A stretch of 33,054 bases of DNA from Methanomicrobiales archaeon (GTDB lineage: Archaea; Halobacteriota; Methanomicrobia; Methanomicrobiales; JACTUA01), in NCBI GenBank assembly GCA_029907705.1, contig JARYLJ010000022.1, positions 1 through 33,054 of the forward strand. The letters are read 5' to 3'. The notes under the pieces were generated by a model. The model saw only the letters and a program-made list of their open reading frames with translations. It did not search any database and had not been told where the DNA came from. The position numbers and the translations under genes are program-made. Shown in pieces: positions 13,901 through 16,854 of this stretch (position 1 is the stretch's first letter; every line of letters begins with the position of its first letter).

Positions 13901-14911
13901 TCACCCCTGCTTGCTCTGGACGGACACGAACTGGATCGTGGGTACACGGACCTTGTGTTCGCCGAGCCTCACGGCATTTCGTATTCGTACGAGTCTCTTC
14001 ACAGGCCCCGGGATCGAGCCCTTGATGACGAGATATCTGTTCCTGATATCGCCATAATGGAGAAAGCCGCCTGCAGGGGTTATCTCTCCACCATTCTCGC
14101 CGATCTTCAGAAGCCTCTTGTTGAACTCCGTCCTCTGCTGATATCCCAGCTGACCGAGCTGGGGCACCTGCCACCTGATATGGTGTGGATGCCACGGGCC
14201 GAGGTTCCCGATATGCCTCTTCCTGCCGACACGGTGCTTTCTCTTCCGGAGTTTGATCCCCCACCTCTTCACAGGACCCTCGGTACCCTTCCCCTTCGTG
14301 ATCGCCGTGACATCGAGATAGCCACCCGGCTGAACGATCTTCTCCACCGGGATCTCCTTTCCGAGCATGGAGAGTCCGTATTCCAGCCTTTTTCCCATGT
14401 CTCCTCCGGCGATCCGTATCTCCATCAGATCCGGGATCTTCTTCGGGATGCCGTATACCTCCATCGGGCAGGTGTATACGATCGCCCTGATATCCGATAC
14501 ACGCCCTCCAGTGACCGCCTCCCTGATGGCATTCAACGCCTTTTCACTCTCGTGGCTCTTCATCATGGGCAGACGACGCCATATCTCCACGTCCAGCACA
14601 TCCGCCCATACCTCTGTCATCGGATGTTCGCCATTGGTGTCCTTTCTGTAGGCCCTGATCGCCGCCACCTTCGTCGGTGGCAGTTCGACGATTGTCACGG
14701 GAACCGTGATCTCCTTTCCCTCGGTGGGGCTGAACCTGTGGTCGTCCACCATGACGACATGGGTCATACCCACCTTGTAGCCTGCCAGTCCCTGGAAAAC
14801 GGGTTCCCCGTCGTACTCCGCCCAGGACTTGTATTTGGGAATCGGACTCTTCGCCCGTTTTCTCGGGCTGTATGCGAGTGACCCTCTTCGTGGCCTGTTA
14901 GTCTTCGGCAT
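13901..14911 (-). CDS. rpl3: Large subunit ribosomal protein L3 (uL3)
   Basis: 336 residues and the first gene of the operon. Begins [20 protein letters not shown]; family blocks include [20 protein letters not shown] and the loop near [20 protein letters not shown] that approaches the peptidyl-transferase centre. ATG at 14911 is chosen; a TTG four codons earlier is the only upstream alternative. A GAGAGG stretch about 12 nt upstream may act as the ribosome binding site, which is rather distant. Confidence 0.96.
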
Positions 14912-15035: not shown

Positions 15036-15311
15036 CTCTGATCTTCTCGGGGGGAAGACGGAGCGATAACTTCTGATCTTTCGGGGGACCGAAATATCAG
15101 CAGGATACCCTACTCGCAAACAGATCCTGACGGGATTCCGCTCTCCGCCTGCTCACGGGAGAAGGGCACGCCATTGCGTCCGCCCTGCGGATCCCTCAGA
15201 CCCGGCACACTCAGCACGCTGCGCCTCGGCGCAGTCCTGCCGTCGTATCCTTCCGAGGACGTATTACCATCCCTCATGGCAGTTCCCCATTTTTCCATGG
15301 GCGACTGCCAT
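15036..15311 (-). ncRNA. Candidate structured RNA or long 5' leader of the S10-spc operon
   Basis: Read on the minus strand, this stretch can form at least seven stems. The first (15311 to 15276) pairs ATGGCAGT with ACTGCCAT and, after a two-base internal loop, CCCAT with ATGGG around a 6-nt loop. Next come a CGGA-looped hairpin at 15244-15261, a 6-bp GC stem with tetraloop at 15219-15234, and a junction closed by 15132-15139/15189-15195 that encloses hairpins 15142-15162 and 15164-15185. A long hairpin follows at 15073-15100 (5 + 6 bp, one mismatch, 4-nt loop) and a shorter one at 15042-15058. I do not see RNase P or SRP RNA core motifs. Existence as a distinct transcript is inference. Confidence 0.5.
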
Positions 15312-15325
15312 ACCTTATGAACGGC

Positions 15326-15334
15326 CTTTATTAA
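15326..15334 (-). promoter_or_regulatory. TATA-like element upstream of the structured region
   Basis: The minus strand reads TTAATAAAG here, in an A/T-rich setting inside an otherwise GC-rich region. Its centre is about 20-26 nt from 15304-15311, the base of the first hairpin, which is the normal archaeal TATA-to-start distance. Confidence 0.5.
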
Positions 15335-15393
15335 TTCTCCGGATGCGGTAATAAAGATTTTCGTAACAATTATTAATGGTGGGACAACCGCGT

Positions 15394-15798
15394 CTATTCC
15401 ACGAAGATATCCCCGCTTTCGTTGATGAAAATCGTGAGATCATCCTTCAAATATCGGCCATGGCAGCATTCGGGTACAGAGGATCGTATCCTGTTCAGGA
15501 GTTCGATCGTGTCATATCTCACTTTGATGCTCAGTTTTTCTGCCTCGCGGTATATCGTTTCGGGCACCCCGAGGAGGTCCGTTCCTGCGGTGATCGTGCA
15601 GAGCTGAATCGCGTCCAGCGTGTGGAGGAACGCGATCGTCTCCCTGGCGCGCCGTATATTCTCCATTGCCGCCTTTTCAATGGCGCAGATATTCGCCTTC
15701 GAGGTGGAGAAGAGATCTGCGATCTGCTGCTGTGTGAGCCCCTGCCGCCTCAATCGCAGCACCTGCTTCTGACGTTCTGTCAGGAGCGATTCTTTCAC
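15394..15798 (-). CDS. tfx: Tfx-family DNA-binding transcriptional regulator
   Basis: 134 residues. The N-terminal third (LTERQKQVLRLRRQGLTQQQ then IADLFSTSKANICAIEKAAM) is a sigma-70 region 4-like helix-turn-helix, and the remainder matches the Tfx C-terminal domain. Tfx was described in Methanothermobacter as a protein binding near the fmdECB (molybdenum formylmethanofuran dehydrogenase) promoter. The start is a GTG at 15798 with no ribosome binding site; a TATA box (TTTAAA, 15821-15826) centred about 25 nt upstream implies a leaderless mRNA. It is divergent from mtd, with which it shares a 213-nt intergenic region, so control of mtd or of itself is a reasonable guess, not shown. Confidence 0.88.
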   Translation of the reverse strand: MKESLLTERQKQVLRLRRQGLTQQQIADLFSTSKANICAIEKAAMENIRRARETIAFLHTLDAIQLCTITAGTDLLGVPETIYREAEKLSIKVRYDTIELLNRIRSSVPECCHGRYLKDDLTIFINESGDIFVE

Positions 15799-15984: not shown

Positions 15985-16011
15985 GTAATTAATCGAAAAG
16001 AGGTGAAATTA

Positions 16012-16854
16012 ATGGTAGTTAAGGTAGGAATTGCCAAACTGGGCAACATCGCCAGCGGTGTGATGGCCGAGCTGCTGCTCGACGAGCGTGCCGACCGTGA
16101 GGACATGGAGACATTCATGGCGACCAGCGGTACGAAGCTCCAGGAGAAGGACATCGATCGTGTGATCAACAACATGAAGGCCTGGGGACCCGACTTCGCC
16201 ATCGTTGTCTCACCGAACGGTGTGCTGCCCGGACCCACGAAGGCTCGAGAAGCACTTCTGGCGGCAGGCATCCCGTCCATCGTTATCACGGATGACATCA
16301 CCACGAAGAAGGAGCAGTTCGAGGCGCTGAAGGCGAGCAAGTTCGGTTATATCATCATGAAGGCGGACGCGATGATCGGAGCGAGGCGGGAGTTCCTGGA
16401 CCCCATCGAGATGGCCGATTACAACGGGAATCTCGTCAAGGTACTCGCGGTCACCGGTGCCTTCCGCAAGCTCCAGATGGAACTGGACAAGGTGATCGAT
16501 CAGGTAAAGGCCGGAAAGAAGGGCGATGCCCTCGTCCTGCCGAAAGTCGTGATCTCCTCTGACAAGGCGGTCGCCGGAGAGTTCACGAACCCCTACGCGA
16601 TGGCGAAGGCGAGAGCCGCATACGAGATCGCCCAGTCGGTCGCCGGCGTGAACGTGAAGGGCTGCTTCATGACAAAGGAGTGGGTGGATTACATCCCGAT
16701 CGTCGCCAGTGCCCACGAGATGATGAGGGCGGCGGCACAGCTCTGCGACGAGGCACGTGAGCTGGAGAAGGGCATGGACGGCGTCATCAGGAAACCGCAC
16801 AAGAAGGACGGCGTCATCGTATCCAAGGTGAAGCTGATCAGCAAGCCCGAGTGA
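16012..16854 (+). CDS. mtd: F420-dependent methylenetetrahydromethanopterin dehydrogenase
   Basis: Reduces methenyl-H4MPT to methylene-H4MPT with F420H2, a cytoplasmic step of CO2 reduction to methane. The 280-residue product starts [20 protein letters not shown], followed by [20 protein letters not shown], a hallmark of Mtd; length is typical. GAGGTGA (16000-16006) lies 5 nt before the ATG at 16012; the GTG start at 16003 would lie on this ribosome binding site and is rejected. Preceded by a strong TATA box with overlapping inverted repeat and followed by an oligo-T terminator, so it is probably a single-gene transcript. Together with mer nearby, this marks hydrogenotrophic methanogenesis. 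Confidence 0.98.

Follow-up and report, generated by a model that had tools for sequence, protein, structure and literature searches.

Introduction

To our knowledge, few RNA regulators of ribosomal-protein synthesis in archaea are known. The closest described system to the RNA considered here is the Rfam family RF03135, "L4-Archaeoglobi," which the article of Eckert and Weinberg (2020; PMC7247131) lists as a ribosomal-protein leader (r-leader) of Archaeoglobi only and rates "?", that is, as borderline. As described there, RF03135 lies upstream of rplC-rplD-rplW-rplB, and L4 is its ligand by precedent, since a bacterial r-leader has L4 as its ligand (PMC7247131). Here, we analyze the gap upstream of rpl3 in the genome of a Methanomicrobiales archaeon. 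The window, meaning the whole stretch of DNA that was analyzed, is 33,054 nucleotides long (contig JARYLJ010000022.1). An initial annotation made from the letters alone had proposed that the gap holds an undescribed structured RNA, either a stand-alone small RNA or a cis-acting leader of the ribosomal superoperon.

Results

The gap upstream of rpl3 runs on the minus strand from the rpl3 start at 14911 to the end of a Tfx-like open reading frame (ORF) at 15394, and these limits bear out the 482 bases first given for it. Downstream of L3, the genes for L4, L23, S19, L22, S3, p29, S17, L14, L24, S4e, L5, S8, L6, L32e, L18, S5, and SecY were confirmed. Upstream of the leader lie both the Tfx-type regulator gene and a gene divergent to it (16003 to 16854, plus strand), which we take to be like an F420-dependent methylene-H4MPT dehydrogenase. 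A TATA-box-like sequence in the gap (Table 1) suggests that transcription of the leader starts near 15326. No intrinsic terminator was found on the minus strand between the element and rpl3, and a search of the gap for tRNAs and guide RNAs gave no match.

The leader folds more stably than its shuffles. The minus-strand RNA from 15311 to 15036 has a minimum free energy (MFE) of -124.7 kcal/mol, compared with -103.7 +/- 5.5 kcal/mol for 200 dinucleotide shuffles of the same stretch (z = -3.8), none of which reached the native value, and for the whole leader z was -4.0. The initial annotation had called the density of long stems in the gap unusual, and a z of about -3.9 agrees with that description. 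The stems that it named, a 14-pair hairpin, a three-way junction, and a hairpin with a 4-base loop (H5), are likewise present. They differ in meaning, however: the conserved element is the three-way junction together with a short hairpin, H1, and in the family alignment the 14-pair hairpin had no conserved counterpart even within the same family.

Table 1. Features of the leader, its flanking genes, and a second lineage with a degenerate host gene
Feature	Coordinates	Strand	Remarks
rpl3 (L3), first superoperon gene in the window's genome	13904-14911	-	
H5 hairpin, CUGAUAUUUCGG-UCCC-CCGAAAGAUCAG	15073-15100	-	Outside the covariance model
R1 match (H1, linker, three-way junction, 3' tail)	15111-15238	-	60.9 bits, E 1.2e-12
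P1, GGUCUGA (15202-15196) with UCAG (15130-15127) then, past a bulged G, AUC	15122-15202	-	
RF03135 match, three-way junction core CUGA...UCAG	15127-15199	-	34.7 bits; gathering score 34.5
P2, GGGAUCCGC (15195-15187) with GCGGAAUCCC (15141-15132)	15132-15195	-	
P4, variable hairpin that closes the three-way junction	15142-15163	-	
P3, GGGC/GCCC, asymmetric internal loop GGA/U, upper stem CGC/GCG	15164-15185	-	
Linker, counterpart of the relatives' near-invariant CGGGCUGACAGAG	15203-15218	-	Possible binding site
H1 hairpin, CUGCGC-CGAG-GCGCAG	15219-15234	-	Relatives' counterpart GUUGUGN..NCACAAC
14-pair hairpin of the initial annotation	15276-15311	-	Predicted fold
TATA-box-like CUUUAUUA	15349-15356	-	Predicted; aligned with UUUAUA in same-family relatives
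Tfx-type DNA-binding protein gene, upstream border of gap	15394-15798	-	PF14601, E 3e-29
G157 element (locus L173)	G157:C1:655971-656051	-	Degenerate PF02598 gene keeps fold

The element belongs to a known class, and its context and history are what is new. RF03135 was the only Rfam match in the gap, and because its cut-off is passed, the RNA is not undescribed, as had been supposed. The margin over the cut-off is thin, such that independent support was needed, and scores near the cut-off can arise by chance. Second RF03135 matches in a glucan-phosphorylase-like coding region of f4 genomes (L174 to L177) reach 32.6 bits, so that a score of 34.7 bits, as in the window, would be weak on its own. 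Weaker recurrent matches in one genus (g9) were rejected as chance: of the five loci fetched, four fell in coding sequence of this glucan-phosphorylase-like kind and one in a different coding ORF. A covariance-model search had been suggested as a check on the leader, and R1, a model of 135 positions and 33 pairs trained on 13 Methanomicrobiales sequences with that of the window left out, recovers the element upstream of rpl3 as the sole match in the window and in its genome. Moreover, the window's element shares with RF03135 a covarying three-way junction and a place upstream of an rplC/rplD/rplW/rplB type operon, judged here on L3, L4, and L23. The lineage differs, as the window is from Methanomicrobiales; membership in Archaeoglobi describes the family and is not a structural criterion. 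Finally, the gap gave no Rfam gathering match to RNase P RNA, SRP RNA, H/ACA, or C/D guide RNA (sR43 was subthreshold, at 11.7 bits versus 45), just as no RNase P, SRP, or H/ACA signatures had been recognized by eye.

The element is widespread and tied to rpl3. RF03135 passes its cut-off in 73 of the 150 Methanomicrobiales genomes examined and in 149 of 295 genomes sampled from Halobacteriota, and Haloferax volcanii carries the element. R1 matches 135 of the 150 Methanomicrobiales genomes (105 of 108 good genomes and 33 of 35 genera), once per genome with a single exception. All 60 RF03135 loci that were fetched lie upstream of rpl3, and all 20 fetched loci found by R1 alone lie on the rpl3 strand, 188 to 434 bases before the rpl3 start. 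From the 3' end of the element to the rpl3 start codon, the distance is roughly 160 to 430 bases.

Outside Methanomicrobiales, the RF03135 match falls inside a protein-coding gene. In most of Halobacteriota, an ORF whose end closely precedes rpl3 encodes a SPOUT RNA methyltransferase (PF02598; E about 1e-57), and at gene-intact loci the core lies within an open frame of more than 200 amino acids in 69 of the 69 analyzed. PF02598 is present in 145 of the 295 Halobacteriota genomes and in 4 of the 150 Methanomicrobiales genomes, each time around the element. The profile was not found in the remaining 146 of 150, the window's genome included, and nothing else of the gene can be recognized in the window or in its close relatives. 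Such absence implies that an RNA modification has been lost. With R1, the four intact Methanomicrobiales copies reach 103 to 108 bits. Gene-lost relatives score equally high and other orders far lower, and this speaks against acquisition from another order. Moreover, the genomes that carry the intact copies do not form one clade in a tree of L3, and thus, as we read this tree, PF02598 was lost at least three times in Methanomicrobiales if regain is excluded. When lists were compared by eye, every RF03135-bearing genome listed outside Methanomicrobiales had PF02598 except one, G157, though a PF02598 match does occur in another genome of its genus (G184). Upstream of rpl3 in G157, methyltransferase fragments are scattered over different frames and interrupted by stops, yet the element persists, with a remodeled P3 of about ten pairs. 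G157 is an independent second lineage in which the gene is degenerate and the fold is kept. The element was ancestrally embedded in PF02598 coding sequence and has been kept free in Methanomicrobiales after loss of the gene. No mention of this coding overlap was found in the literature surveyed, which did not extend to the supplement of Eckert and Weinberg (PMC7247131).

The structure of the element is real and under selection as RNA, and in gene-lost genomes it is so without its protein. Gene-lost sequences fold singly into the same three-way junction, and in nearly all of 29 of them the unconstrained MFE equals the MFE with P1 enforced. Paired cells amounted to 91.1% in 42 gene-lost sequences and 89.9% in 44 gene-intact sequences; in the 86 combined, the value was 91.6%, compared with 76.4% when shuffled and at most 55% with slid partners. 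By our own tree-aware null, made in the manner of R-scape and not R-scape itself, and on alignments that were fitted to the covariance model and lean toward structure, covariation was significant at 14 of 33 pairs in 86 sequences, 10 of 33 in 53 gene-lost sequences, and 5 of 30 in 33 gene-intact sequences, and no significant pair fell outside the structure in any of these three sets. A separate run, in which the sets differed in part from these, found 4 and 7 significant pairs. Compensatory changes in the stems, which the initial annotation had named as support for an RNA, are thus seen in the gene-lost set by itself.

H1 has double changes at 7 of 7 pairs, 4 of them significant (86 sequences), and its sequence is wholly replaced in distant members with pairing kept. 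The P1 CUGA/UCAG pairs occur in essentially all 86 sequences, and P1 also forms in the unconstrained MFE. The sequence of P2 is almost free, yet 88% of its cells are paired in the 86 sequences, and all four of its modeled pairs show double changes and are significant. The lower stem of P3 is 99.7% paired and the upper stem strongly covarying; P4 forms in almost all relatives' MFE structures although its sequence is unrelated among them, and 2 of its 5 modeled pairs are significant in the 86-sequence set. H5 lies near the site of a CCGGU-GCAC-ACCGG-type hairpin whose stem sequence changes among relatives. Downstream hairpins of this type, with varying stems, are found in most gene-lost loci, and the mean stem score was 16.1 in 51 gene-lost loci compared with 9.5 in shuffles. 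As a separate observation, two loci of one genus (L074 and L075 of g4) carry tandem CUUCGCGA-like repeats within 110 bases after the element that look like copies of its conserved UUCGCGA tail.

Reading frames were compared across the core. The methyltransferase frame is kept without stops at 26 of 27 intact loci; gene-lost loci are spread 28, 16, and 7 over the three frames, and 30 of 51 contain stops. Across the element, three different frames are occupied by the window and the relatives nearest to it (L001, L066, and L067), and thus the 62-codon ORF at 15110 to 15298, the conservation of which as protein was to have counted against an RNA, is not a conserved protein.

Where the gene is intact, the element is probably used in two ways, as codons and as a fold. 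Identity at four-fold degenerate third bases was higher inside the element than elsewhere in the gene in one family (f9; 0.686 versus 0.345; circular-shift fraction, 0.011) and higher inside than outside in a mixed gene-intact set (0.50 versus 0.326; 0.011), in the four intact Methanomicrobiales (0.741 versus 0.485; 0.10), and in a halobacteria-like set (0.734 versus 0.632; 0.14). The silent-site excess is clear in the first two of these four groups and weak in the four Methanomicrobiales and the halobacteria-like set. Higher silent identity inside the element indicates that the stretch probably serves both readings at once; the two weak groups would not by themselves reveal this. In the halobacteria-like loci (L035 to L064), silent-site identity is highest immediately upstream of the Rfam core (0.88 over 15 codons), which suggests further RNA structure inside the methyltransferase gene.

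Discussion

We interpret the gap as the 5' leader of the rpl3 superoperon, holding a conserved RNA that probably acts in cis, and we think it reasonably probable that this RNA is an r-leader bound by a ribosomal protein of its own operon. Of the two options first offered, the cis-acting leader is supported by position, covariation, and conservation. The leader would consist of H1, the near-invariant linker, the three-way junction that forms the RF03135 core, and the downstream hairpin, and it would act on its own transcript, that of the rpl3-rpl4-rpl23-rpl2 superoperon. An operon ribosomal protein in excess over rRNA would bind the leader and lower expression of the operon. L4 is the candidate ligand by precedent, and L3, L2, or L23 could take its place; the linker may be the binding site. 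The methyltransferase would not be needed as a ligand, as most Methanomicrobiales carriers lack PF02598. Because the element ends roughly 160 to 430 bases before the rpl3 start, control probably works through elongation or termination, or through stability or processing, and not by direct masking of the ribosome binding site.

Whether the leader mimics rRNA bears on its ligand. r-Leaders frequently, though not necessarily, resemble the rRNA site of their ligand, and at the sequence level no such resemblance appeared: when three Methanomicrobiales 23S rRNAs were compared with it by shared words, by motif patterns, and by best ungapped match, nothing rose above shuffles. The 23S rRNAs of relatives were used because a search of the window's own genome found none. 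A likeness of the linker to GGGAUAACAGAG of the 23S peptidyl-transferase region was rejected, as shuffled linkers match equally. It is therefore gene context alone that points to a ribosomal protein as the ligand. Moreover, in gene-intact genomes ribosomes translating the frame would unfold an RNA that lies within it, and a simple r-leader model is harder to uphold for that reason.

The element might instead be a cis-acting RNA of the operon that senses no ribosomal protein, being a processing or stability site or the site of another factor, such as an RNA-binding protein or a small molecule. The distance from the rpl3 start, the undetected mimicry, the location within a coding frame in most of Halobacteriota, and the near-invariance of the unpaired linker and tail would all fit such a site, but the strict tie to the rpl3 superoperon is typical of r-leaders, and no Rfam riboswitch or guide-RNA family matches. 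We regard this alternative as possible but rather unlikely. A stand-alone small RNA gene that precedes rpl3 by chance could account for a compact fold of 130 to 200 bases with a TATA-like element upstream. It is disfavored because every confirmed instance, 80 of the 80 checked (60 plus 20), is upstream of rpl3, and elsewhere in Halobacteriota the RNA lies within a coding gene that adjoins rpl3; we consider it very improbable. That RF03135 is merely misread coding conservation and the window a decaying pseudogene remnant has in its favor the matches within conserved coding sequence outside Methanomicrobiales and the 32.6-bit coding stretch, but it is scarcely credible and already contradicted, given an element found in 135 of 150 genomes while PF02598 is not found in 146, pairing kept despite internal frameshifts and stops, covariation in gene-lost genomes alone, and a gene otherwise unrecognizable in the window and near relatives.

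Returning to the r-leader, we lean, on balance, toward a history in which the RNA arose inside the methyltransferase coding sequence, outlived a gene that was repeatedly lost (at least three times in Methanomicrobiales without regain and once in G157), and still controls the superoperon. A borderline Rfam candidate thereby becomes a well-supported RNA across much of Halobacteriota. Since the usual place of the element is inside a protein gene, the description of RF03135 as a 5' untranslated leader is incomplete. Where a gene is lost but the RNA embedded in it is spared, nature has itself separated the coding function from that of the RNA, and the element of H. volcanii offers a tractable case for how archaea control ribosomal-protein synthesis.

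Compared with known systems, the window's RNA is like RF03135 in that its three-way junction core exceeds the gathering score and it too lies upstream of rplC-rplD-rplW-rplB. Unlike RF03135 as published in the body of that article (PMC7247131), it is found across Halobacteriota, is extended by H1 and H5, and stands free in most Methanomicrobiales, whereas outside that order PF02598 coding sequence encloses it. Bacterial L4 leaders had no Rfam match in the window's gap; that of the S10 operon, which includes L3, L4, L23, and L2, would be a functional analogue (PMC7247131). The source of the RNA sequence is the YREGVV...GSD..AWVDVG..SPVP region of the PF02598 gene, which encodes the element. The protein gene was not found in the window's genome, and there the RNA alone remains.
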